IMG/VR virus record: IMGVR_UViG_3300036828_000609
Coordinates: 1 to 20,670 of that record
Length of the DNA: 20,670 bases
Origin: a virus
Direction: 5' to 3' (one strand)
Shown here: positions 1 through 16,387 of the stretch, in pieces
Layout: every line of letters begins with the position of its first letter
Numbering within the stretch: position 1 is the stretch's first letter
Notes under the pieces: generated by a model
Database searches by the model: none
What the model was told of the DNA's origin: nothing
Seen by the model: only the letters and a program-made list of their open reading frames with translations
Made by a program: the position numbers and the translations under genes

Positions 1-216
1 TACATCAAGATCAGTTGCGAGAAAACGAAGGGTGCTCTTGACGATCCCGACAAGCTGATCAAGGGTGGAACGTACGATCTGCCTAAAGAAGCGTACGCTC
101 ATACCTGTACGTTCCAGGGGTGGGAGTCGGTCGAAGGGCAGTGCCCATTCCCCTGGGCTCGCGAGAGCAACCGCTCGTTCCGATCTCAGCACCATAGGAT
201 CGAAAAGGCAAAATGA
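1..216 (+). CDS. C-terminal part of an unknown phage protein (5' truncated)
   Basis: An open frame runs from the first base of the window to a TGA at 214-216, giving the last 71 residues of a protein whose start lies outside. The piece is hydrophilic and has three cysteines (in ISCEK, HTCTF and GQCPF) and a basic tail ending RIEKAK. The last Cys lies beside an aromatic stretch CPFPW. The stop overlaps the ATG of the next gene (ATGA at 213-216), so the two are probably translated together. I do not recognise a family. The three Cys could bind a metal, but no complete zinc-binding pattern is visible. Confidence 0.65.
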   Translation, partial: YIKISCEKTKGALDDPDKLIKGGTYDLPKEAYAHTCTFQGWESVEGQCPFPWARESNRSFRSQHHRIEKAK

Positions 217-422
217 GCGGAAGAGTCCTAACGATATGTGATGAGATCCGGCACCGGATCCCGTTCTGGTGGTGGCTCACCTACGACCTAGCTGTCGCGC
301 TCGTTATCGTTGCCGGCGGCGTCGGAGGATTCGCACTTGTGTTAGGGCTGTTCGTGCTCTCTATCGCTGTCATCATAGACGTAGCCGAGTTCATCGCCAA
401 GAGACCGCGAAAGGCTGAATGA
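213..422 (+). CDS. Small membrane protein, 69 aa
   Basis: The 69-residue protein has a hydrophilic N-terminus, an aromatic patch FWWW at about residues 18-21, a long hydrophobic Gly/Val/Leu stretch at about 25-58, and a basic tail ending KRPRKAE. The hydrophobic part is long enough for two short transmembrane helices with a glycine-rich turn (AGGVGG), or one long helix. The ATG overlaps the upstream stop (ATGA) and the stop overlaps the ATG of the HTH-like gene (ATGA, 419-422), so it is a link in a coupled plus-strand operon. Its function is unknown. A holin-like role is possible by size and topology, but nothing in the neighbourhood supports it. Confidence 0.7.
   Translation: MSGRVLTICDEIRHRIPFWWWLTYDLAVALVIVAGGVGGFALVLGLFVLSIAVIIDVAEFIAKRPRKAE
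245..260. repeat. Short dyad inside the 213 gene
   Basis: GATCCGG (245-251) is followed after two bases by its exact complement CCGGATC (254-260), about 30 nt after the start codon of the small membrane protein gene. As RNA it would form a six-pair stem with a four-base loop. Short dyads like this arise often by chance. I list it only because the other plus-strand genes also carry dyads near their starts. Confidence 0.3.
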
Positions 423-991
423 CAACGACGCCTTACCAGTACGACCGCGAGCGAGTCCGCACTGATGACCTCGCGGTCGTACTCGACCAATGGTGCCAGG
501 AATCCGAGGATCATAACCCCATCAATCGGATGGCTATGTTAGCGGAAGTCGATCTCCGCACGCTGTACGCGATTCGCAACAAGCGAACCAAATCCACGAG
601 CTTCTTTCTCGCCGACAAGATACTCACAAAGATCGGCCTCGACATGGCATTGCGGGACGGACGGATACGCAAGCCTGGACAGAGGCACGGAGAATATCAC
701 AAGTCGGCAGTAGATTGCTCGACGGTTCGGCCGCATACGAAGGAACTTGTCGAGCGGTGCGGCGGCGCTCCGCAGGCGGCGCAGTACGCGCTCGTTACAC
801 CGCAGACGATCAACCGTGTCCTGAACGAAAAGCAATGTACCATCCAGCAGGCTACTGCGAGGAAGATCCTCATCGCTTTGGAACACCGGCGCGAGGAGGA
901 TATCGAGGTCAAGAAAATACATGACCGTCTTCTACGGAAACGTCAACAAGACGTTATCGAGAGCGACAGAGAAAGGCTGGTAGGATACTGA
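419..991 (+). CDS. Putative DNA-binding protein with two HTH-like regions
   Basis: The protein has 190 residues. Residues about 36-75 (from NRMAMLAEVDLRTLYAIRN on) look like the helix-turn-helix half of an XRE-type domain: a short helix, the turn AEVD, a recognition-like helix, then the hydrophobic LADKILTKIGL helix. Residues about 106-155 repeat the pattern (GGAPQAAQYALVTPQTINRV, then TARKILIALE). The C-terminus (about 156-190) is highly charged and probably helical. Two such units in one chain could bind two half-sites. The ATG overlaps the previous stop and the stop overlaps the next ATG (TGATG at 989-993). A 14-bp perfect inverted repeat lies just inside its 5' end. A transcription regulator is the best guess; no family was identified with certainty. 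Confidence 0.65.
   Translation: MTTTPYQYDRERVRTDDLAVVLDQWCQESEDHNPINRMAMLAEVDLRTLYAIRNKRTKSTSFFLADKILTKIGLDMALRDGRIRKPGQRHGEYHKSAVDCSTVRPHTKELVERCGGAPQAAQYALVTPQTINRVLNEKQCTIQQATARKILIALEHRREEDIEVKKIHDRLLRKRQQDVIESDRERLVGY
438..483. promoter_or_regulatory. 14-bp perfect inverted repeat at the 5' end of the HTH gene
   Basis: AGTACGACCGCGAG (438-451) is repeated in perfect inverse as CTCGCGGTCGTACT (470-483), with 18 bases between. It begins 19 nt after the ATG at 419 and lies within codons 7-22. As mRNA it would form a stable GC-rich hairpin close to the initiation region. As DNA it offers two half-sites to a dimeric or two-headed protein, such as the product of this gene. Which of these applies, if either, is inference. 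Confidence 0.55.
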
Positions 992-2076: not shown

Positions 2077-2200
2077 CCTCCAGATCGACCCCTCTCTCAA
2101 TCGCTTCGGCTATTCGTTCCAGGACGGCTAGTAGTCTATCGAATCTCTCGATGATGCGGTCGGTAATGTCAACTACCATCTTCCGATCAGGTTCATTCAT
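2066..2200 (-). CDS. 44-aa helical small protein
   Basis: This short frame starts with the ATG at 2200, which overlaps the stop of the Ig-domain gene (ATGA, 2197-2200), and ends with TAA at 2066-2068. The protein begins MNEPDRKMVVDITDR and has a heptad-like pattern of Ile, Leu and Val (IIERFDRLLAVLERIAEAIE) with an acidic end, so one amphipathic helix or coiled coil is likely. A longer reading from 2347 exists, but it would overlap the upstream gene by 150 bases and its extra part looks non-coding. Its place between adhesin and holin candidate suggests a late accessory role. Function unknown. Confidence 0.6.
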   Translation of the reverse strand: MNEPDRKMVVDITDRIIERFDRLLAVLERIAEAIERGVDLEDEE

Positions 2201-3249
2201 GATGCCATCTTCGGGATGTAGTCGTAGTAGACGCAGCAGCCCTGTGTGAAGCTCGTGTTCATGCCGGAGATCGTCTCCCACTTCGCCATCCTGACTCCCT
2301 CGCCTCCATTGACATTGACCGCCGGGCCGCTCCGGAATGGCCCCCATGTCGGGCCGTTATCCCAAGCGTCGTATTCCACACCATTGACGTCCAGAGTAAC
2401 ATGAATGTCGTTCCCTGATGTACCACCTTCGCAGCGTCCTGCGTTCGTTGTGCCCATCTGGACGCGCATCTGGTAGTGAGTGGGATCCGGGTTCCCAGGA
2501 AGACCGTGATAGGTATTGATGTTGTTTCCAAAGTTGTCCCAGATCGCATTGACGTTCCAGCGGTTGTTGTAGTCAGGGCCGACGTTGCGGTAAGAGTCGT
2601 ATGCCTGCTCATCATCGTTCCACGGAGCCCAGCCGCCGAAGTAGAGCAGACCGCCGGCAATCCCGTTCGAGACGGTGACTCCGACCGACGCCTGTACCTG
2701 GTTCCCCTGCGGGTCTCTCACTGTGGCGTAGATCGTATGTCCGCCATTCGCGAGATTGTGGGTGTCGTAGCTGAGCTGGTACGGCGCTCCGAGCGCGCCA
2801 CCGACATTCGCTCCGTCGATGTTCCACTGGACGGTCGCCGCGCCTCCGAAGCTCGACACACTGGCGGAGAGAGTGATGACGCCGCCGACCGTCGCGCCGC
2901 TGCCTGGGCTCGTAATCGAGATCGTCGGAACGTTGTTCACTGTTACGTTGCTAGTCAGAGTAGTCTGATTCCCGACTCGATCCTTGACAACAGCCGTGAA
3001 CGAATGCGCTCCGTTCCCGAGCGGACGAGTATCGTACCCGTTGATTTGGAACGGGCCGGTCACAGGCCCGCCGATATTGTTGCCATCGACCTTGAACTGA
3101 ACGCTGGCAACGCTGTCGTTATCCGAGACATTGACGAACAGGTTGATGAGACCGCTGACTGTCGATCCGTTCGCCGGGGTAGAGAACGCCCCAACCGGAA
3201 GGATGTGGTCAGTAGAGTCGAGGATCCCGACTGGTACCATTCCACTCAT
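2197..3249 (-). CDS. Ig-domain virion protein with unknown C-terminal domain
   Basis: The start is the ATG at 3249, overlapping the previous stop (ATGA), giving 350 residues. Residues about 21-105 and 109-194 are two bacterial Ig-like repeats of the Big_9 type: each has a PANGSTVSG- or PGSGATVGG-like opening, VQFKVDGNNIG or VQWNIDGANVG in the middle, then YDTxxLxNGxH and a closing VKDRVGNQ or VRDPQGNQ. Phage Ig domains are known on tail fibres and other exposed proteins, where they bind cell-surface carbohydrate. Residues about 195-350 form a Trp-, Tyr-, Asn- and Gly-rich domain I do not recognise, with one Cys in AGRCEGG and a Cys pair in QGCCVYYDY. It lies at the end of the tail cluster, so a receptor-binding role is plausible but inferred. 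Confidence 0.75.
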   Translation of the reverse strand: MSGMVPVGILDSTDHILPVGAFSTPANGSTVSGLINLFVNVSDNDSVASVQFKVDGNNIGGPVTGPFQINGYDTRPLGNGAHSFTAVVKDRVGNQTTLTSNVTVNNVPTISITSPGSGATVGGVITLSASVSSFGGAATVQWNIDGANVGGALGAPYQLSYDTHNLANGGHTIYATVRDPQGNQVQASVGVTVSNGIAGGLLYFGGWAPWNDDEQAYDSYRNVGPDYNNRWNVNAIWDNFGNNINTYHGLPGNPDPTHYQMRVQMGTTNAGRCEGGTSGNDIHVTLDVNGVEYDAWDNGPTWGPFRSGPAVNVNGGEGVRMAKWETISGMNTSFTQGCCVYYDYIPKMAS

Positions 3250-3800
3250 GGTACCAGGTTCCCTGCCACCCACCAGTCGTCGGTACCGCGCTTCTGAACC
3301 GAAGCCATCGCGTATTGACCAGCGAGCTTCAGCGCGTTGTTGTAAGACTTGAGCGTCACGCCTGAGGACGCAGCTATGGTCGTTAGACCCGCTCCCAGCT
3401 GCGCGACATCGATCCGGACACCAACGGGAAAGGCGACAGCAGAGTTGGGCGGTATCGTGAAGCTGTTCGCTCCGGGGACATTCATCTCGATCACCTTGCC
3501 GGCGTCACCGAGCACCGGGGTATAGCTCGCCGTCTGAGTGACGTAGGTGATGAAAGAAGTCGAGACCGTCTGCCAGGCTGCGCCGTCATCATACCAGAGC
3601 AGCTTCGTATCGGTCGTCCACCAGAAGCGACCACCGCCGGTCTGGTGCGCGGCTGCGAGCCTCTGGGCGTCGGTTCCTTGGTTGTAGACAACGTCTACAT
3701 CGAGCGGCGTCGCCAAGTTGCCGATATGAAGGGCAATGTCAGCGCGGTCGCTTCGATCATTGCTGGGATATGAGATCCCGCGTCTAGTTGTAGTGAGCAT
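3246..3800 (-). CDS. Tail fibre-type structural protein, 184 aa
   Basis: ATG at 3800 follows GGGAGGG closely. Residues about 57-80 hold a short beta motif (FWWTTDTKLLWYDDGAAWQT) of the kind seen in phage fibre proteins, where a label such as a tag or time value is followed by a Trp-containing strand. Residues about 85-184 form a domain common in phage tail and fibre proteins, with the pattern SFTIPPNSAVAFPVGVRI, then VAQLGAGLTTIAA, LKLAGQYAMASVQKRGTDDW and a final AGNLV. I recognise it as a recurrent virion domain, not as an enzyme. It lies eight bases after the gpI-like gene and overlaps the Ig protein, so it probably belongs to the fibre or its attachment to the baseplate. Confidence 0.7.
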   Translation of the reverse strand: MLTTTRRGISYPSNDRSDRADIALHIGNLATPLDVDVVYNQGTDAQRLAAAHQTGGGRFWWTTDTKLLWYDDGAAWQTVSTSFITYVTQTASYTPVLGDAGKVIEMNVPGANSFTIPPNSAVAFPVGVRIDVAQLGAGLTTIAASSGVTLKSYNNALKLAGQYAMASVQKRGTDDWWVAGNLVP

Positions 3801-6051: not shown

Positions 6052-6231
6052 TCATTCTCCTTTCGGTGAACTGGCTGCGAGGTCAAGCTCGAAGTTTTCA
6101 GCGAACCGCTTCAAACCGTCTACCCCGAACACCGCAACTGGCTGCTCGGACGTCACTTCTCTGACGACGTTGCCCTCGTCGTTGACTTCCTGGACGACCG
6201 CGACAACGAGGAACTTGTATGGGCGGAACAT
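6052..6231 (-). CDS. 59-aa protein between fibre and gp25
   Basis: ATG at 6231 overlaps the fibre stop (TGATG), and TGA at 6052-6054 ends 59 residues. A longer reading from 6603 lies inside the fibre gene and looks non-coding. The protein begins MFRPYKFLVVAVVQEVNDEG, with one hydrophobic beta-rich run then EGNVVREVTSEQPVAVFGVD, and ends in a helix LKRFAENFELDL. This is compact and soluble, without motifs I know. The next gene's ribosome site (AAAGGAG) is formed by its last codons, so the two are tightly linked. A small baseplate-associated or chaperone role is possible from position only. Confidence 0.6.
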   Translation of the reverse strand: MFRPYKFLVVAVVQEVNDEGNVVREVTSEQPVAVFGVDGLKRFAENFELDLAASSPKGE

Positions 6232-7700
6232 CAGTTCGGCACCCGTAGCATACGGTAACCAGCCCCGCCCGAGTCGGCTGCGCCGACCTGGACAAGCTGC
6301 GAAGAACCGCCCAGCCCGCCAATCACGAGGTTCCCGTCTGTCTTCAACTGGCCAACCGCCGAGCGGTAGAGAGTCGTGTCGGGCGCAGTTGCACCACCGA
6401 CGCCCCAACTCAGCTTGCCGTCTGCTTTCCCGATCTTGAATGAATACTGAGCGTCGTGGTCTGTCTTGAAGAACCCCAGCTCGGTCGAAGAGAAAGTCCC
6501 GGCCCACCCGACCGTCTGGTTCCAGAACTGGATGCCGTCTAGATCGTTCTCCGTCCAGAGTGACCAATGACTGGCACCATTCCCGGCGTTGAGGTCGAGC
6601 CATGCGCCAGTATCGCCAGGTGCCCCGCCTTTCGGTGCGGAGATGTAGAAGCTCGGATAGCCGCCGCCGCCGCTGGTGTCGAAACTGTAGACTCCGCCAC
6701 CACCGGAGAGATCGTCAATGTTGATCACGCTAGGAGCCGAGCGGTAGAGGGTTACATCAGCCGCAACCGCACCGCCTGGCCCCCACTTCATCGAACCATC
6801 TACCATGAGTTCGAAGTAATCTTCGGCATCGGCGCCCATCCACGCCGTAAACGCATAACTCGCGTTCGCTGTCGCGCCTCTTCCCGCTACGCCCATGTTG
6901 CCAGCAAAGAAGCCACCGTTAGTCTTTAGTTGATTGACGCCGTTGCGTTGAAGTAGCGTGTCGAGTGCGGCGTTGCCTGGCCCCCACTGCAGCGAGCCAT
7001 TGGTGTCGATAGCGAAGCGCGTCGTCGTGTCGCTGTTGAGCTCGGTCGTGAGCGCAGCTGCGACCGCACTGTGATAGACGCGGACGTTCCCCGCCAGCCC
7101 GAACCCGCCCGGCGTGAAGAGCGAGCCCACGTACCAACGCTGCAAGAACGTATCCGCTGCACCGCCGCCAGCAGGTGACCACTTGATTGCCTGGTTGTTC
7201 AGGAGGTCGAACTCACCCGCAGAGAACTGGTACATATCGGGCGCTCCTGCGCCTCCTGCGAATCGCATCCCCGGAAACGACGCAAGTTGCGTATAGATCA
7301 TCCAGTCGCCATCGCTACCAACTCCCTTGGATGTGAACTCGATTCCTGCGCCACCCGAGGCATCTGGGGACTTCATGAAAATCCAAGGATAGTTGTTTAC
7401 CGAGAGTCCAATCGTGCTGCCGGTAGCTCCGATTGGATAGAGGGAGTTGATGTTGAATGAGTTCGACGTTGAAGGGTCGGACACCATCGTCAGTTCGCCA
7501 GGCTTGGTACGCCAGAGAGCGACATCCGGTGCAGATGCAATCGCTGGCCCCCAGTTGATCCTCGCGGGAGCAAAGATGTTTGAACTGGGATCGATGCCGA
7601 CGTAGCCGCTGGGCATGTCCTTCTCGTCGCGCGTCTGCAGCTTAGTCATATTGACGGCGTTGACCGGAGTCACGCCGTCAACCCATACAGGATCAGCCAT
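6231..7700 (-). CDS. Tail fibre with five WGPGG-type repeats
   Basis: ATG at 7700 follows GAGGT by four bases and gives 489 residues; the GTG three bases earlier is too close to that site. The protein has five degenerate copies of a motif of about 28 residues: a strand ending in Trp, then GPGG or similar, A-D-T/V-x-L-x-R-S, and LKTDGNL. They lie at about residues 48-75, 172-198, 237-262, 304-330 and 429-458; the clearest are MKWGPGGAVAADVTLYRS and LSWGVGGATAPDTTLYRS. Such repeats are typical of phage fibres and minor tail proteins and probably form trimeric beta structure. Between them are Gly/Trp-rich unique parts. The gene lies within the baseplate cluster, so it likely encodes a host-contacting fibre. 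Host receptor unknown. Confidence 0.8.
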   Translation of the reverse strand: MADPVWVDGVTPVNAVNMTKLQTRDEKDMPSGYVGIDPSSNIFAPARINWGPAIASAPDVALWRTKPGELTMVSDPSTSNSFNINSLYPIGATGSTIGLSVNNYPWIFMKSPDASGGAGIEFTSKGVGSDGDWMIYTQLASFPGMRFAGGAGAPDMYQFSAGEFDLLNNQAIKWSPAGGGAADTFLQRWYVGSLFTPGGFGLAGNVRVYHSAVAAALTTELNSDTTTRFAIDTNGSLQWGPGNAALDTLLQRNGVNQLKTNGGFFAGNMGVAGRGATANASYAFTAWMGADAEDYFELMVDGSMKWGPGGAVAADVTLYRSAPSVINIDDLSGGGGVYSFDTSGGGGYPSFYISAPKGGAPGDTGAWLDLNAGNGASHWSLWTENDLDGIQFWNQTVGWAGTFSSTELGFFKTDHDAQYSFKIGKADGKLSWGVGGATAPDTTLYRSAVGQLKTDGNLVIGGLGGSSQLVQVGAADSGGAGYRMLRVPN

Positions 7701-7950
7701 CACTACCTCGATTTGGCGGCGTCGGAGGAACCGAAGCGCCTGGATTCATACCGAGCGTGTCGGCATGACTACCGGATCCGACGCTCAGGCATTCGGCGTT
7801 CCCGAAGATATGCTGCGAAGTCGGCTCGCCGTAGATTTCGTGCGTGACGAACATCCACCCGGTGCGCTCGGACGAGTCGAGGTCTGGATGACCCTGGCAG
7901 TCCGGGTTATCACACACGATGTTCAGGGTAGACGTTTCTTCAATTGTCAT
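7693..7950 (-). CDS. Small Cys-containing protein, 85 aa
   Basis: The 85-residue protein overlaps the OB-fold gene upstream (ATGA, 7947-7950) and the fibre downstream by eight bases. It has a CDNPDCQGH motif at about residues 13-21, a beta-like WMFVTHEIYGE, and one more Cys in NAECLS at about residue 54. The tail is Pro/Gly-rich (GASVPPTPPNRGSDG). Two Cys four residues apart with nearby His and a third Cys suggest a metal site, but no standard finger is complete. A ribosome site AGGAG lies ten bases before the ATG. It sits between spike and fibre genes, so a small baseplate or adaptor part is likely; no function is established. Confidence 0.6.
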   Translation of the reverse strand: MTIEETSTLNIVCDNPDCQGHPDLDSSERTGWMFVTHEIYGEPTSQHIFGNAECLSVGSGSHADTLGMNPGASVPPTPPNRGSDG

Positions 7951-8507
7951 GCGATCACTACTCCTTTCCAGACGCCATTCACGCGCGCCCAGAGTTTGTT
8001 GTTAGTCGAATCTACGACAATCGTACCGTCAGGCGGCGGGCTTGGCCAGTCGCTGTCGTGCGGCATTCCTGCCTTCTCCTTCGCTGCAAGTGTCGCACCA
8101 ACCTGATGCCATGCACTCCCACCGGCGTCGTACTGGTACATATGGCTGTTTCCGTTCGCATCCGCGTCTTCTGCGATCCAGATATCCATATCGACCGGAG
8201 AGACCGGGAACCCATCCGAATACGGACTCGTTGATATCGTCGGATTGCGAACGGCAGGCCACCAGGTGATCACCCATGGCTCGTTCTGATTGTCGAAGAT
8301 GACGAGCACGATATCCTCGACCTGAGGCAGAGACATGTTATCGCGGGATTGCCACCTGACGTTAGGGAAGACGAGATCCGCGTTGATGTCGGGGATCGTT
8401 ATATCGATGAGCGCCGAGAAGTTGAGCGGCTGCCGATGAATGATCCCTTTGTAGATCTGTCCAAGAGCTACGTCAGGCGGACGAATATCTTGGTACATAT
8501 CGCTCAT
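7947..8507 (-). CDS. Baseplate OB-fold (gpV/gp5-type) protein
   Basis: The N-terminal part (about residues 15-85) fits the OB-fold of baseplate spike proteins such as P2 gpV and T4 gp5: YKGIIHRQPLNFSALIDITI, then VRWQSRDNMSLPQVEDIVLV and the strand WVITWWP. Instead of a beta-helix spike, residues about 106-186 carry two small fibre-like motifs (MDIWIAEDADANG..YQYDAGGSAWHQ and PDGTIVVDSTNNKLWARVNG). It would plug the hub at the tail tip. ATG at 8507 overlaps the hub stop (ATGA), and hub followed by spike is the usual order. Length is 186 residues. The OB-fold call is good; the lack of a long spike is an observation, so the piercing tip may be another protein. Confidence 0.7.
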   Translation of the reverse strand: MSDMYQDIRPPDVALGQIYKGIIHRQPLNFSALIDITIPDINADLVFPNVRWQSRDNMSLPQVEDIVLVIFDNQNEPWVITWWPAVRNPTISTSPYSDGFPVSPVDMDIWIAEDADANGNSHMYQYDAGGSAWHQVGATLAAKEKAGMPHDSDWPSPPPDGTIVVDSTNNKLWARVNGVWKGVVIA

Positions 8508-10726
8508 GGCAAGTAGCTCCGCATAGCGATTACCGTCTCAGCGTTGATCGGATACTCGATCACACCTTGCTCCGATCCGCAAGACGCTACCATCCCTCCT
8601 CCGAGGTAAACGGTAACATGTCCGGGGAACGCGAGAGTACCGTGATAGAAGATCAGATCTCCCGGTTGCGGCGAAAGAACGGGAAGGCCATGAGCTACGA
8701 GAGTCCCTGTGTTACCTCCTCCATCGTAGTTCTCATCGTTCGGGTCGGCGCAGCCCGCTTCCTTGTAACAGAGAGTCGCGAACGCCGAACAGTCGAGTGC
8801 AGCATGAGCCTGCTTACTCCAGAGCGTACTCGGGATCGGTCTCGCTGGCCCTGGCCCTGCGCCGCCTTCCTCATGCGGATAGTGATAATGCCAAGTCTTG
8901 TTGACCTCGATAGCTTTATTGGCGACCGCTACAACGGACTTCCGATCTCCGTTGTTCATCCCGGCGATCCCGCCGAACGCCGCCTGGTTGGTACCCGTAT
9001 ATGATCCAGCGGCGGCGGCAGGAGCCGCAGCGGTGTTAGCCCAAGTCGGTAGCGCGTTGCTGCTCTCGGTCGCGGGCTCAGGTAGCTTCGGCTGCGGTTT
9101 TGTCAGAGCGATGTCTGCGTTGTCATCAAAGAGACTACGCGTGAATGTATTGACGAGCCAGCGACCGTCGAGCGGCCCCATGTCTTCCAAGACTACCAGA
9201 GATCCCGGCGGCGCGAGCCATAGCCCGACCTGACACGGTAGGTCTACAGTAGCTCCCTGCCTGCCAACGTCGTAGTCGAATCCGATCCCCATGATGCCGG
9301 GGGTCTGTTCGTTGACAGTCGCTATCGGCTGAGTTTTGAAGAGATCGTCGTCGTCAAGAAAGTAGAAGACGCCACCTATGAAGAATGCGCGCCAGCCGAC
9401 TTCACCCGCGAGCCGCTGGATACAAGTCCAGTTATCTTCGCGCTTCCACCATCCCTTGTTGCGGGTCGGCGGTATGCCGCGATAGTAGTAGTACGATCCA
9501 TCAGCGCCAGGACTCGTAGAAGTGAAGCCCATCGCATTGGCGGCAGCTGCGCTCCCTTCGGTCGTTGAGTCAGACGTACCGGCTGTCCCGCCGGTCGGAG
9601 CGTTGCCCTCGTCTCCTGGCGGGATTCCGAACGCACTGACGATCCGCTCCGCTTCCCAACGCCATTGTCCGTAGAGAGTAGGGTGACCTGAGTTCTGAAC
9701 CGTCTGGCAGAGATCGTTGAAGCTAAGACCAGGCTGGCTCGCGTCGTCTTTGATGCACCGCTCCAGGAACATCCTGGCTGAAGTAGCCGGATCAGTACGG
9801 TCGGCGTAGCTGCCCCAGTATTGATCAATCTGCTGGAAGAGACCGGCGCTGGTACCATCGCCACCTGCAAGGTTCTGCAAGACGCTTTCCTGGATCGCAG
9901 TCATGATAGCGCAGACCATGACCTTCCGGCGCGCGTTCATATTCGAAGCGACTGTCAGGATCGTGTTCGCATTCGCGATCTGAGATTTCGTAGCTCGGAC
10001 GTTCTTGACCATAAGAGCTTGAGTCGTCGTCACGGTGTAGGTGTTAGCGGTCGCTCCCTTGCCGGGGCCAATCGAAGGGTGAGCAGTTTTATACTTGTTG
10101 AAGTCAGACGGGATACCGCCCGATGACGCAACCGAGGTAGGAGTGTAGGAGGTTGCCACATCGGTCTGTTTCGCGATCCTCTGAATCTGATGAAGATGCG
10201 GGATCACTACCGGGATGTCCACTTCTTTGACTTCGCGAATCAGGTTGAGGATGAACTCAGCGCGCGTCACCTTGTCCCGGCTCGCCCACTTGACCCACTT
10301 CTTCGCGTTCTCAATCGTATAGTTGGTCGTGTCTGGCTTCGGGTAGGAGCGCAGCAGAGAGATCTCGCGCTGCTCAAATGTCAGCTTCAGTTCGTCGTCA
10401 CTTGCGTTCTTGGAACAAGAGACGAGACGGAACCACAAGCCGTCGATCTGAATATCGAGCTTCGCGTTGATAGCCCAAGACCGTAGGATCGCTCGGTCGT
10501 AATCGTTGAGCGAAACATCGACTGTGCTCGAACCGTCGATCCCTCGATTGACCTGAACATCGATCACTCGATCTGTTGTATCGAAGAGGATCTGACTTTT
10601 GAGGTAAACGAGTAGTTTCCCAAGGTCGAGATCCTTCCCCATCATCTCGCGCTGGATCTGATTCGGGTCGAGCTTCGATAGCTCCAGCTTCTTGACGGCG
10701 GTAACAGCTTTAGACGTAGGTGCCAC
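8504..10726 (-). CDS. Baseplate hub fused to lytic transglycosylase and NlpC/P60 domains
   Basis: The 740-residue protein starts with GTG at 10726, overlapping the previous TAG by one base. Residues about 30-185 look like the first domain of a gp27/gpD-type hub. Residues about 250-370 fit a soluble lytic transglycosylase: IMTAIQES with the likely catalytic Glu280, then GTSAGLFQQIDQYWGSY and a C-terminal helical part ending RIVSAFG. Hub-like sequence resumes at about 405-545 (WTCIQRLAGEVGWRAFF, FLDDDDLF, GRWLVNTFTRSLF). Ala/Pro-rich linkers follow, then an NlpC/P60 peptidase at about 590-740 with LDCSAFATLCYKEAG (Cys646), GDLIFYHG and PGHVTVYLGGG (His703). The protein could cut both glycan strands and peptide stems at injection. 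The third catalytic residue is unclear. Confidence 0.85.
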   Translation of the reverse strand: MAPTSKAVTAVKKLELSKLDPNQIQREMMGKDLDLGKLLVYLKSQILFDTTDRVIDVQVNRGIDGSSTVDVSLNDYDRAILRSWAINAKLDIQIDGLWFRLVSCSKNASDDELKLTFEQREISLLRSYPKPDTTNYTIENAKKWVKWASRDKVTRAEFILNLIREVKEVDIPVVIPHLHQIQRIAKQTDVATSYTPTSVASSGGIPSDFNKYKTAHPSIGPGKGATANTYTVTTTQALMVKNVRATKSQIANANTILTVASNMNARRKVMVCAIMTAIQESVLQNLAGGDGTSAGLFQQIDQYWGSYADRTDPATSARMFLERCIKDDASQPGLSFNDLCQTVQNSGHPTLYGQWRWEAERIVSAFGIPPGDEGNAPTGGTAGTSDSTTEGSAAAANAMGFTSTSPGADGSYYYYRGIPPTRNKGWWKREDNWTCIQRLAGEVGWRAFFIGGVFYFLDDDDLFKTQPIATVNEQTPGIMGIGFDYDVGRQGATVDLPCQVGLWLAPPGSLVVLEDMGPLDGRWLVNTFTRSLFDDNADIALTKPQPKLPEPATESSNALPTWANTAAAPAAAAGSYTGTNQAAFGGIAGMNNGDRKSVVAVANKAIEVNKTWHYHYPHEEGGAGPGPARPIPSTLWSKQAHAALDCSAFATLCYKEAGCADPNDENYDGGGNTGTLVAHGLPVLSPQPGDLIFYHGTLAFPGHVTVYLGGGMVASCGSEQGVIEYPINAETVIAMRSYLP

Positions 10727-11382
10727 TACGGGATCCTCACCTTCGTCTTAGGCTTGATGTTGTTCGGGTCACGGATACTCGGATTGGCTTTAGCGATATC
10801 CTTCCACCGACTCGGGTTTCCGTACATTGCTTGAGAGATGCTCTTCAATGTATCGCCCTTCTGGGTGAGGTACTGGTTCGGCAGAGAGTTGGTGATTGTG
10901 ATCTGTAGACGTTGCTCTTCCTGATACTGCATCAGATGAACGGTAGCGTCCTGACGCAGACGGTAGAACTCGCCATGACGCTCGGCGTTCTTGCCGGCGT
11001 CAGCCCAGTAGACGTTTGTGCCCCAGTCAATGCTGAGGATGATCCAGGTCGCGCCGTTGACAGGTAGCGCCCCATCGATCTTGATAGTAGGCGGCGGGCT
11101 GAAGTCGTACCCTCTGGCCATCTCCTGCATGACTCGGATAGGGTGCTCAACGCTGACACCGTACCTCCAACCATCGAAGAGGATCGGGACATCCATAGAG
11201 TACGGATCGCGGCCAGTCCACTGCGTGAGGCTCGTCCGGCGCGGGCGCTGCACAGTACTCCAACCACCCTCGCCGCCGACGATGCTAGCGGGATTGTCAC
11301 CGCGCAGGACTTTGACCGTCTGTCCTTTGCTTGACTTGAAGGTATAGAAGTACCTATCAGGAACTCTTGTAGGTAGATTCAC
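10726..11382 (-). CDS. LysM-containing baseplate/tail protein (gp53-like)
   Basis: The 218-residue protein starts with GTG at 11382, within GTGA that also ends the tape measure gene. The last about 48 residues are a LysM domain: YLTQKGDTLKSISQAMYG, then WKDIAKANPSIRDPNNI and KTKVRIP. LysM binds GlcNAc-containing polymers, but in baseplate proteins such as T4 gp53 and Mu or P2-like relatives it also serves as an assembly module. The first 160 residues are beta-rich (WTGRDPYSMDVPILFDGW) and have no motif I know. A LysM protein between tape measure and hub is the usual order in many myoviruses, so a structural baseplate role is more likely than a lytic one. Confidence 0.8.
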   Translation of the reverse strand: MNLPTRVPDRYFYTFKSSKGQTVKVLRGDNPASIVGGEGGWSTVQRPRRTSLTQWTGRDPYSMDVPILFDGWRYGVSVEHPIRVMQEMARGYDFSPPPTIKIDGALPVNGATWIILSIDWGTNVYWADAGKNAERHGEFYRLRQDATVHLMQYQEEQRLQITITNSLPNQYLTQKGDTLKSISQAMYGNPSRWKDIAKANPSIRDPNNIKPKTKVRIP

Positions 11383-13577
11383 TTTCTCGCCACCGCCTTC
11401 TGTCGGTGCTTCGCGCTGTTAGCAGCGATCTCTTTCCCGTCGAGATGGACATGGTTATGAACTTCGATATGTACCGGCCCAGCTCCGGCAAGAGCCGTTC
11501 TGAATGGATTGATCTGAGCCTGCGGAGTCTTGATCGCGCCGCCGCCTGATACGTCCGCCCTCCCGATCCCAGGCTGATTCCAGACAGCAGATGCAGCATG
11601 ACCTACTGCTCCTGCTGCTCCCTTGATCGCTCCGACGATCCAGGTAGCTCCGGGGATCTTCTTCCACAAGCCGAGCAACTCCTTGATCTTCGCGATGGCC
11701 TTGTCAGCCCATCTGATCATCGGCTGGAACCATCCAGTGATCGCTCGTACCATATCATTGATATCTTTCCATGCAGATATGAACGGCCCGGTCACCATGA
11801 CGTTCCAGACATCAGATAGCCAACGGAAGAGAGGTTTGAGTACATTGTTCCACATATCCGTTAGTAGCTTACTGAGCGAGTGCCAGTGATCATACAAGAC
11901 CCTAGCAGTCACCAGGATAGCCGCGAGCCATGGAGCGATGAACAGAAGGATCGCTGCGACGAGCTTCCAGTGTTCCCAGATGAACTTGAACGTCGTATTC
12001 ACGAGGTTGTGGAACCACTTCCACTTGAAGTAGAGGATCACGAGACCGGCGATGAGGAGAACGACAGCTGTGATGATCCAGGCGATTGGATCAATCTCGA
12101 AGGCTATCAGTTCACCAGCAGCAGCAGCCTTGTACGCATTCACAAGTCTCCTCAAACCTTTTTCGAGAAATGTGAGGGCACGGAACTGACCGTTGGCAGC
12201 CTTCGCAGCCTTACCGTTAGCAACCGCCCAGAGTGTAGTCCACCAGGTAGAGAGTTTTGTCCAGATGGCTGTCTGTTTTATCCACGTGAGCAACTTCATC
12301 GTAGCAAGTTTATTCCTATTCTTCCACAATGTCGAATACGCCTCGGCAACTCCGTCCGCCCAAGCGAGTGTTTTCTCGGTCGCCCAGAGACTAATCAGGA
12401 TCGTCAGAACTGGAACCATCAACCAAGACTGCTTCGTTAGTTCCTTGAGAATCCACAATAGTGGACTGAGTGCGGAGAAAACACCGTTCACGATGACCGC
12501 CATCACAAACAAAGTCGGAAGCAGATCGTCCTTGATGATGACCCACAGATCCTTGACGACCTTTATGATGTTCTGTATGAGCGTGATAAATGGTTTCGCC
12601 CAAGGCCAGCTCGTTTGGACGACTCCGAACACCTGAGCGAGACTGATTCTCCCCTTTTGGCGGATGATGATCTTACTAATCCCGTCGAACATGTCGTTGA
12701 TATTCTGAAGGATGCCACGCTTCCCGGTGACGCCAGCGAATCCTCCGAATGTCAGTGCTCCCATCGTCTGAGAGATGTTGTCCTTGAGGGTGGTTAGCTC
12801 ACCCTGTAGAGACTGCGCCTGGCGTTTCGCTGCATTCATGTACGCGGGCGTCGTCTCTATGTATTTGTTGATCGCGGCAAGAACGGATGAAGCCGGGATA
12901 CCGAGCTTCGAGATATTGTGAAGCTGAGCACCGCTGATCCCCATCTCCTTCGACAAAGCAGCGAAGATCGGGATACCGTCACGAGCGAGCTGGTTCACCG
13001 TGAACCCGGTCAGCCGTCCCTGGTACGCCATATGCTGGAGAGCGACCGAGACGCGGTTCAAGTTCGATGGACTTGTTCGGCCGGTCGCAGCCAGAGCATC
13101 GACCATCGATTGCAACGTCGTGTTCACGGTGGCAGCCGAGATCCCGAGCGGCTGCATCGCCAGGTACATCGAGCGGAATGCCACCGTCATATCTTGGAAC
13201 CGGAACGGACTGTACTTGGAGATATTGAACAGCTTCTCCAGTTCTCCGCGAACAGCTCCGATGTTACTCATGACCGGCTTCAGAGCTATAGTCGCACTCT
13301 GCATAGTCTGGTTGAAGCTGACACCCCACTTGAGGGCTTCGACTCCCGCTCCGGCTAGAGCGATAGTTGAAAAGTAAGCCATGCGGCGCATCATGTAGAT
13401 GCCCTGAGTCATCAGGGCTGAACGCTTGGAGGCTTTTTCAACGGTTGCGCCGTACTCTGTGACCCTCTCGTTCAGACCAGTTACTGCATCCTTGGTAGCT
13501 GTGATCCCGGCGATAGCTGTACGCGCGCCGGTGAGAGTGATCCGAAGAGTAGCCGATGACATACCGCCGAGTGCCAT
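11379..13577 (-). CDS. Tail tape measure protein
   Basis: The 732-residue protein follows the chaperone directly: ATG at 13577 abuts the frameshift-frame TAG, with GGAGG 11 bases before. The N-terminal about 280 residues are helical and match tape measure proteins (AGAGVEALKWGVSFNQTMQSA, then LFNISKYSPFRFQDM and ARDGIPIFAALSKEMG). Hydrophobic stretches at about 351-398, 497-516 and 535-557 could be membrane-active at DNA entry. The C-terminus ends in VHIEVHNHVHLDGKEIA, a motif often found at tape measure ends. It sets tail length: at about 1.5 Å per residue, 732 residues would give a tail of roughly 110 nm, an estimate by rule of thumb. No muramidase or peptidase domain is seen here; these are in the hub. 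Confidence 0.9.
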   Translation of the reverse strand: MALGGMSSATLRITLTGARTAIAGITATKDAVTGLNERVTEYGATVEKASKRSALMTQGIYMMRRMAYFSTIALAGAGVEALKWGVSFNQTMQSATIALKPVMSNIGAVRGELEKLFNISKYSPFRFQDMTVAFRSMYLAMQPLGISAATVNTTLQSMVDALAATGRTSPSNLNRVSVALQHMAYQGRLTGFTVNQLARDGIPIFAALSKEMGISGAQLHNISKLGIPASSVLAAINKYIETTPAYMNAAKRQAQSLQGELTTLKDNISQTMGALTFGGFAGVTGKRGILQNINDMFDGISKIIIRQKGRISLAQVFGVVQTSWPWAKPFITLIQNIIKVVKDLWVIIKDDLLPTLFVMAVIVNGVFSALSPLLWILKELTKQSWLMVPVLTILISLWATEKTLAWADGVAEAYSTLWKNRNKLATMKLLTWIKQTAIWTKLSTWWTTLWAVANGKAAKAANGQFRALTFLEKGLRRLVNAYKAAAAGELIAFEIDPIAWIITAVVLLIAGLVILYFKWKWFHNLVNTTFKFIWEHWKLVAAILLFIAPWLAAILVTARVLYDHWHSLSKLLTDMWNNVLKPLFRWLSDVWNVMVTGPFISAWKDINDMVRAITGWFQPMIRWADKAIAKIKELLGLWKKIPGATWIVGAIKGAAGAVGHAASAVWNQPGIGRADVSGGGAIKTPQAQINPFRTALAGAGPVHIEVHNHVHLDGKEIAANSAKHRQKAVARK

Positions 13578-14938: not shown

Positions 14939-16387
14939 TTACGGAGCCGTGATCGGCTTCTTGTAGACCTCGATCTGGATCATCTCGGCGAACTCGCTCA
15001 TCTTGACGTTCAAGACAGCGTGCAGTTCGTGATTCGCGATGGTCGTCGGGGTATTGACCTGAGCGCCGGTGTCCACGAAGAACGCCTCAGACGCCGAAGC
15101 GCCGTAGAGATCACCGTTGTTGTAGTAAATCGCCAGCATCCCGCTGAGCGCGGCGTTGAATGCGGAGATGGTCATGTTCTTTCCGTCGAGCTTGTCGAAG
15201 ATGAAGCTCTCCGCGATGGCCTGTCCATCCGCAGCGATGGCCATATACAGCCGGCCACAACCGAAGTTGACCCAGTCGGACTCGGCCACAGGATCCGAGA
15301 GCGACCGCCAGCCGTAGTTGCGGATCGTCCCGTAGAGCGGACGAACGACATCGATCCCCGACGAGTTGAGCGTCTGCCGGTTGGCATCGCTCATTGCCGG
15401 CTGCGACAGCCCGGTCGCGAACAGCGAGACGCCGTTGTCTCCAGCAGCCGCCTGATCAGGGCCCAGCCCCTGCGAATCGTTCCGCCCGAGCAGACCGGAG
15501 ATCAGAGCCGATGGAGGAACGTTGCGGGTCGATCCCGAGACAACGCCTGGAACGATCAAGTTTGGCCAGAACATCGCTCCGAACTTGGAAGACGATCCGA
15601 CGCGCGCCCCGAGCGCGGACGCAGTCAACGTCGCGATGGTCGAAGTATCCGGAGCATCGAGGATCGCGACCCTCGAATGCTTGCCGGCATGATCGACCAG
15701 CTGCTGGTGACCAATATCCGACGTACGACCTGGAGCCGAGACCTGCCCAGGCCCGAAGTCGGAAGTGATCCCGTCGAGCGCCGCCTGCCACTGGACATCG
15801 GTGATGTTCGTCCTGTCGTCGTTTCCGCCCGCGAGCGCGACGGCGGCAGCGACAGCAGGATCGTTCGCTGACGGCCCGGCAGTGAGTCTGATGTACGCGG
15901 AGTTCTGCGCCCAGAGGATCGCGGTCGGAGGATCAACCAGATCCGGGCTGGTCTCGACCTCGACACCGCCGATGACATTGAAGATCACGAACGTACCGGA
16001 TCCCTGGCCCGCACGAACGCCGGTACTGATGTTGTTCCCGCTCGCGCCAGGCCCGAGCGCGCTGACGATCAACGAGACCGCTGCGGCCGCGTCGAGCAGG
16101 TTGTGGGAAGCGGTGACCGCTGCAGGGCCGACGACTCGCTTGACGTAAGCGTGAGCGCCTCCTTCGCGGAAGTAAACATCGAGCGCGTCGTACAAGACGC
16201 TGTAGCTGACTCGCTGGCCGAATGTGTTCATGAAGTCGGCCATGCTGTCGATCAGCGTCGGAACGGTCGGCCCGGCATCAGCTGTCCCCACGACGAACCA
16301 GACGCCGGTATCGGTTGGAGCACCGATTGTCGGCGGACTGGGCCGCAGCGTGACGTTGACGCCAGGCCGGATCAGAACAGTGCTCAT
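14939..16387 (-). CDS. Tail sheath protein
   Basis: The protein has 482 residues, typical of compact sheath proteins. The N-terminus (STVLIRPGVNVTLRP, then GVWFVVGTADAGPTVPTLI) is the conserved beginning of phage tail sheath families. A middle domain follows with KRVVGPAAVTA and alanine-rich parts, and the C-terminal domain has YGWRSLSDPVAESDWVNFG, RLYMAIAADGQAIAESFIF, FNAALSGMLAIYYNNGDLYG and a final strand EMIQIEVYKKP that links subunits. Contraction drives the tube through the envelope. ATG at 16387 overlaps the previous stop (ATGA), and TAA at 14939-14941 runs into the tube ribosome site. Confidence 0.93.
   Translation of the reverse strand: MSTVLIRPGVNVTLRPSPPTIGAPTDTGVWFVVGTADAGPTVPTLIDSMADFMNTFGQRVSYSVLYDALDVYFREGGAHAYVKRVVGPAAVTASHNLLDAAAAVSLIVSALGPGASGNNISTGVRAGQGSGTFVIFNVIGGVEVETSPDLVDPPTAILWAQNSAYIRLTAGPSANDPAVAAAVALAGGNDDRTNITDVQWQAALDGITSDFGPGQVSAPGRTSDIGHQQLVDHAGKHSRVAILDAPDTSTIATLTASALGARVGSSSKFGAMFWPNLIVPGVVSGSTRNVPPSALISGLLGRNDSQGLGPDQAAAGDNGVSLFATGLSQPAMSDANRQTLNSSGIDVVRPLYGTIRNYGWRSLSDPVAESDWVNFGCGRLYMAIAADGQAIAESFIFDKLDGKNMTISAFNAALSGMLAIYYNNGDLYGASASEAFFVDTGAQVNTPTTIANHELHAVLNVKMSEFAEMIQIEVYKKPITAP

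Follow-up and report, generated by a model that had tools for sequence, protein, structure and literature searches.

The locus studied here raises the question of whether a single phage baseplate hub can carry two peptidoglycan hydrolases in one chain, with one of them set inside the hub fold itself, and of what such an arrangement would do for the phage. The window, i.e., the whole stretch of DNA that we analyzed, is a virus record of 20,670 bases, possibly incomplete; it stems from a soil phage whose tail is contractile, as the sheath gene shows (14939..16387, minus strand; phrog_23, E 1e-35). The reading frame of interest starts with GTG and lies on the same strand at 8504..10726 (740 residues, stop included in the coordinates), the position that had originally been assigned to it. 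It belongs to an operon that encodes a capsid protein (PF25209), the sheath, a tape measure protein (11379..13577, minus; PF20155, 60.9 bits), a LysM protein of 218 residues that is a gp53/gp16-like baseplate component (10726..11382, minus; PF01476, 31.2 bits), the hub, a small protein of 186 residues (7947..8507, minus), and then gp25-, J-, and P2-I-like baseplate proteins. The hub gene hence sits between the tape measure and LysM genes on one side and, on the other, the 186-residue protein, a probable OB-fold spike judging from its position and the look of its sequence. This spike candidate matched no relevant family in Pfam or PHROGs, and the hub protein matched no family in NCBIfam. Two further minus-strand genes of the window deserve mention: a 490-residue frame at 6231-7703, near the hub and spike candidate, which matches no Pfam family, has similar counterparts in just 10 of 80 loci, and is perhaps a variable fibre-like protein, and a 358-residue protein at 2197-3273 that contains two Big_7 Ig-like repeats and may belong to a tail fibre or serve in adhesion.

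Scanning viral contigs twice, we recovered relatives of the hub at 76 loci (L002-L077, some of them near-identical), which were 27-92% identical over the best segment. Among 80 loci, the LysM protein was found in 75, the tape measure protein in 73, the sheath in 71, gp25 and J in 60, and the spike candidate in 58, and the gene order (sheath, tape measure, LysM protein, hub, spike candidate, gp25, J, P2-I), which we read in the first 20 loci, was kept. The relatives at 76 loci, together with this kept order, exclude a chance reading frame at 8504-10726. In bacterial genomes, two contig scans, one using the protein and the other the alignment, returned no relative of the hub, and hence no prophage and no host. 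The window sheath is, however, 29-30% identical to the sheaths of Gordonia, Arthrobacter, and Brevibacterium phages, and because of this resemblance an actinobacterial host appears likely. Some relatives displayed peculiarities of their own: in L006 (7959-9878 and 9737-10240), the hub frame ends at residue 640, with the NlpC/P60 domain continuing in another frame, which may be either a sequencing error or a real frameshift, and in L037 and L048 (7551 onwards), the hub reading frame contains ~145 additional N-terminal residues.

We modeled the hub with AlphaFold2 as a single chain, using 55 aligned sequences. The resulting model (mean pLDDT 77, pTM 0.47) was confident for single domains, though not for their mutual placement. 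Structural alignment with VIA revealed that residues 30-185 (10172..10639, minus; subdomains 1 and 2) and residues 410-547 (9086..9499, minus; subdomains 3 and 4) make up one hub fold, with ~230-258 residues aligned over 30..547 at Z 15-19. The matches to the P1 hub (9vzk; Z 18.7 over 252 residues), T4 gp27 (Z 16.8 over 255 residues), and the pyocin R2 hub (Z 15.3 over 245 residues) all ran across the segment that separates the two halves and, since each half comprises only ~140-155 residues, both halves are required for alignments of this length. With its four subdomains, the modeled protein is a gp27-like baseplate hub, and the original description of a hub-like N-terminal part followed, after an interruption, by resumed hub-like sequence was borne out. 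It would presumably assemble as a homotrimer, the form in which hubs of this class make a 6-to-3-fold adaptor.

Is the interrupting enzyme a true insertion? Brevibacterium phage Cantare provides the decisive comparison, because its gp26, a protein of 285 residues at the same gene position, lacks the enzyme and aligns across the gap. Upon comparing the halves of the window hub with a small profile of isolate-phage hubs by hhalign, the first half matched residues 18-105 of Cantare gp26 (probability 83, E 8.8e-6) and the second half residues 149-284 (probability 97.3, E 1.8e-11), such that the two halves are colinear. Cantare gp26 was likewise retrieved from the BFVD structure library, with a TM-score of 0.75 (normalized to the length of gp26; 522 alignment columns). 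Accordingly, residues 405-545, on whose hub-like nature the original prediction had staked itself, belong to the hub fold by VIA, by hhalign against Cantare, and by the structure library alike, and one enzyme is indeed inserted inside that fold, as had been proposed. The secondary structure of the model places the insertion between hub subdomains 2 and 3 (subdomain names as in PMC9437275). In sequence searches, tblastn against isolate phages gave no match for the first hub half and, for the second, just matches at E 0.1-0.3 to Gordonia minor tail proteins, which became convincing only through gene position and profile comparison.

The inserted domain, residues 236-368 (9623..10021, minus), closely resembles the GH184 muramidases. 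Its profile matched 8b2h at E 2.3e-12 and 8b2e at E 5e-9, and its model superposed on 8b2h with Z 20.0 and an rmsd of 1.9 Å over 128 residues, and on the second GH184 structure with Z 19.9 and 1.6 Å over 126 residues. These founding structures of the family, KsGH184 and TtGH184 (8b2e, 8b2h), are stand-alone fungal muramidases, in which Glu41 of KsGH184, corresponding to Glu125 of TtGH184, is essential by mutation (PMC10394673). In the profile alignment, Glu280 of the hub (in the motif IQES; codon 9887..9889, minus) falls on Glu125 of TtGH184 and is hence the predicted catalytic acid; all 66 covering sequences, the window included, retain both the inserted enzyme and a Glu at this position. A second residue, Asp290, aligns with the substrate-side Asp150 of TtGH184 (Asp66 in KsGH184), but is an Asp in 44 of 67 alignment rows and is therefore not family-wide. 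The hub domain has the fold and the catalytic Glu in common with the fungal enzymes, which differ in standing alone rather than being tail proteins and, for TtGH184, in carrying their own SH3-like wall-binding domain. Each of 28 related contigs had exactly one GH184 domain, which invariably lay in the hub frame. GH184-type domains also occur elsewhere among phages, as the tape measure proteins of Streptomyces phages contain one at ~36-41% identity (e.g., ON645339, 29696-30106, annotated just as tape measure).

The original prediction had named this domain a lytic transglycosylase with Glu280 in IQES as its catalytic residue. It was right about a glycan-cutting enzyme and about the position of the catalytic Glu, whereas the family matches point to GH184 muramidases. 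A true lytic transglycosylase, yielding a 1,6-anhydro product instead of hydrolyzing the glycan, seems to us rather unlikely. The pattern ES...GLFQQ does resemble the GH23/SLT superfamily, there is a Pfam SLT_3 match in one relative (E 7e-4), and a single catalytic Glu fits both chemistries; the window protein, however, has no SLT match in Pfam, and the best solved matches by both sequence and fold are GH184 muramidases, including the Asp150 position at Asp290. We therefore consider that the inserted enzyme is, from its sequence and its model, better called a GH184-type muramidase with a lysozyme fold.

The second enzyme occupies the C terminus. Residues 591-740 (8507..8956, minus) matched NlpC/P60 in Pfam (PF00877, 30.8 bits against a cut-off of 23), and their model matched CwlO (23tz) with Z 15.6 and rmsd 2.5 over 128 residues. 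Cys646 (in LDCS; codon 8789..8791, minus), the predicted nucleophile, is conserved in 24 of 24 NlpC/P60-type members, and His703 (in PGHV; codon 8618..8620, minus), the predicted base, in 23 of 24 with one gap, in agreement with the peptidase and the residue pair that had been predicted. Enzyme domains might, in principle, have degenerated into modules that only bind the wall or clamp the baseplate: the hydrolase lobes of diffocin also clamp its baseplate before contraction (PMC10996793), and the lysozyme domain of cyanophage A-1(L) is not among the domains with reported lysis (PMC10966104). We regard such degeneration as very unlikely here, given that all covering relatives, though diverged to as little as ~26% identity, retain the catalytic Glu and the Cys/His pair, and that the domains replacing the C-terminal peptidase in relatives are other peptidase-like domains.

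These replacements constitute a pattern of their own. Clustering the C-terminal regions of the relatives by single-linkage BLAST gave an NlpC/P60 class (24 members), an M15-like class (22), an M23 class (10), and another Cys-peptidase type (C40; 2), with Pfam support for NlpC/P60 in 22 of 55 members and for M23 in 8 of 55. The M15-like group shows invariant H, H..G, D, and H..HxH positions, and its putative label draws mainly on this pattern of H, H..G, D, and HxH. For its representative L027, the C-terminal domain had no match in PDB or PHROGs; the model of this L027-type domain (pLDDT 90) had as its best matches LAS-type metallopeptidases (VldE, MepA, and a Zn DD-peptidase) and hedgehog domains, which have the same fold, at a Z of only 6-7. 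Mapping the classes onto a tree of the core (hub plus muramidase), in which 13 branches are weakly supported, required at least 16 class changes as a rough minimum, compared to 20-31 changes with shuffled labels. Since the observed count lies below the shuffled range, C-terminal exchange, as read from these sequences, happens often, yet not at random. Four large relatives (L019, L020, and L026, 7923-10868; L022, 7434-10433) encode hubs of 982-1000 residues with an additional C-terminal domain after the NlpC/P60 domain. This additional domain matches Amidase_3 weakly (E 4.6e-4 in L019 and 0.016 in L022), the L022 domain found nothing in PDB or PHROGs and the L019 domain nothing in PHROGs, and it is possibly a third hydrolase in the chain.

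Because the muramidase is fixed in every relative and the C-terminal module has been replaced repeatedly, adaptation to differing wall chemistries probably falls to the peptidase. A bolder and, in our view, still tentative extension is that the never-lost muramidase is combined with a C-terminal socket for varied peptidases, whose class would then reflect host wall chemistry at the level of stem peptides or cross-links. If true, one could read from the tail-tip sequences of uncultured phages which wall type their hosts have.

What, then, would the two enzymes do? With considerable confidence, we read the protein as a trimeric, gp27-like hub of a contractile tail that would cut the wall at entry with a GH184-type muramidase and an NlpC/P60 endopeptidase. 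Both hydrolases would be held on flexible linkers, the muramidase in the loop that joins subdomain 2 to subdomain 3, and the peptidase after subdomain 4. Contraction would drive the spike and hub into the wall, where three muramidases and three peptidases, arranged around the tube, could locally cut glycan strands and peptide stems and let the tube reach the membrane. That both enzymes instead act at lysis, with the hub doubling as endolysin, we consider highly improbable. A Pfam scan of the 16 ORFs in the 20.7-kb window, possibly a fragment, detected no further peptidoglycan hydrolase, as had been noted before, and 12 of 15 larger relatives likewise have no Amidase_2 protein, both of which would suit such a lysis role. 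The search in these relatives covered just three hydrolase families, though, in contigs whose completeness is unknown, and the hub fold and baseplate synteny also argue against it, as does a separate Amidase_2 protein, presumably the endolysin, encoded elsewhere in 3 of the 15. NlpC/P60 and M23 matches in the same 15 relatives occurred only in the hub frame. Returning to entry, it is plausible that the hub is the main wall-opening enzyme at that stage, as first suggested, but since 3 of the 15 larger relatives encode Amidase_2 elsewhere, it is not necessarily the only wall enzyme of the phage.

The combination of two hydrolases in one hub has precedents in A-1(L) gp15, diffocin CD1368, and Brussowvirus Tal, of which A-1(L) has the same layout, so that the arrangement is less unusual than originally proposed. 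The site between subdomains 2 and 3, a GH184 module in a hub, and the pattern of a fixed muramidase and an exchangeable peptidase are not described for these published examples. In cyanophage A-1(L), gp15 (PDB 8kea) carries glycan-cutting domains in the barrel at residues 56-430 and a C-terminal peptidase at 736-899, in vitro assays of its peptidase and endoglucanase domains gave lysis of host cells, which supports local wall cutting during tube penetration, and the LysM baseplate protein gp16 is anchored on it (PMC10966104). Like the window hub, it is a contractile-tail hub with a predicted or known glycan-cutting insertion, a C-terminal peptidase, and a LysM baseplate protein. It differs in having two inserted glycan domains, located after ~55 residues, where the window hub has a single one between subdomains 2 and 3, in the enzyme families named, and in its Gram-negative cyanobacterial host. 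Diffocin CD1368 (PDB 8v3w), for which local wall cutting during tube penetration was proposed (PMC10996793), is likewise contractile, targets a Gram-positive wall, and combines, in a single chain, a gp27-like hub with an enzyme that cuts glycan and an NlpC/P60 enzyme. Its enzymes, however, follow the hub in tandem with none inserted, an arrangement that the window hub does not have, and it cuts glycan with a lytic transglycosylase of the MltA type (Tyr-Asp-Asp). In Brussowvirus Tal (SW13, TP-778L; PMC9437275), a glycoside hydrolase and a CHAP peptidase are inserted in the gp27-like domain, but this is a siphophage protein, both lysins are inserted together between subdomains 3 and 4, and the glycosidase has an Auto-type glucosaminidase fold.

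The present data extend these few known two-hydrolase hubs to a large family of uncultured phages and place a putative GH184-type muramidase inside a tail hub at a new insertion site. With one enzyme constant and the other exchanged on the same hub, the family offers a natural series for testing the share of each enzyme in thick-wall entry. Among isolate phages, the C-terminal end of gp20 of Arthrobacter phage Abba looks like a CHAP domain when its sequence is read. Gordonia phage Gray (MK279853; L078 9204-11925) encodes, at the same gene position, the tandem hub paralogues gp51 and gp52, which are 50.5% identical over 291 residues. Of these, gp51 ends in a GH184 domain and gp52, as read from sequence, in an NlpC/P60-like domain; the Gray virion hub may be a mixed trimer. 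Both modules are thus found on hub proteins in Gray as well, but they are split, one per paralogue, and both are C-terminal. Overall, the Gordonia phages appear to solve the same problem with two tandem copies of the hub carrying one enzyme each, in contrast to the single chain with two enzymes found here.
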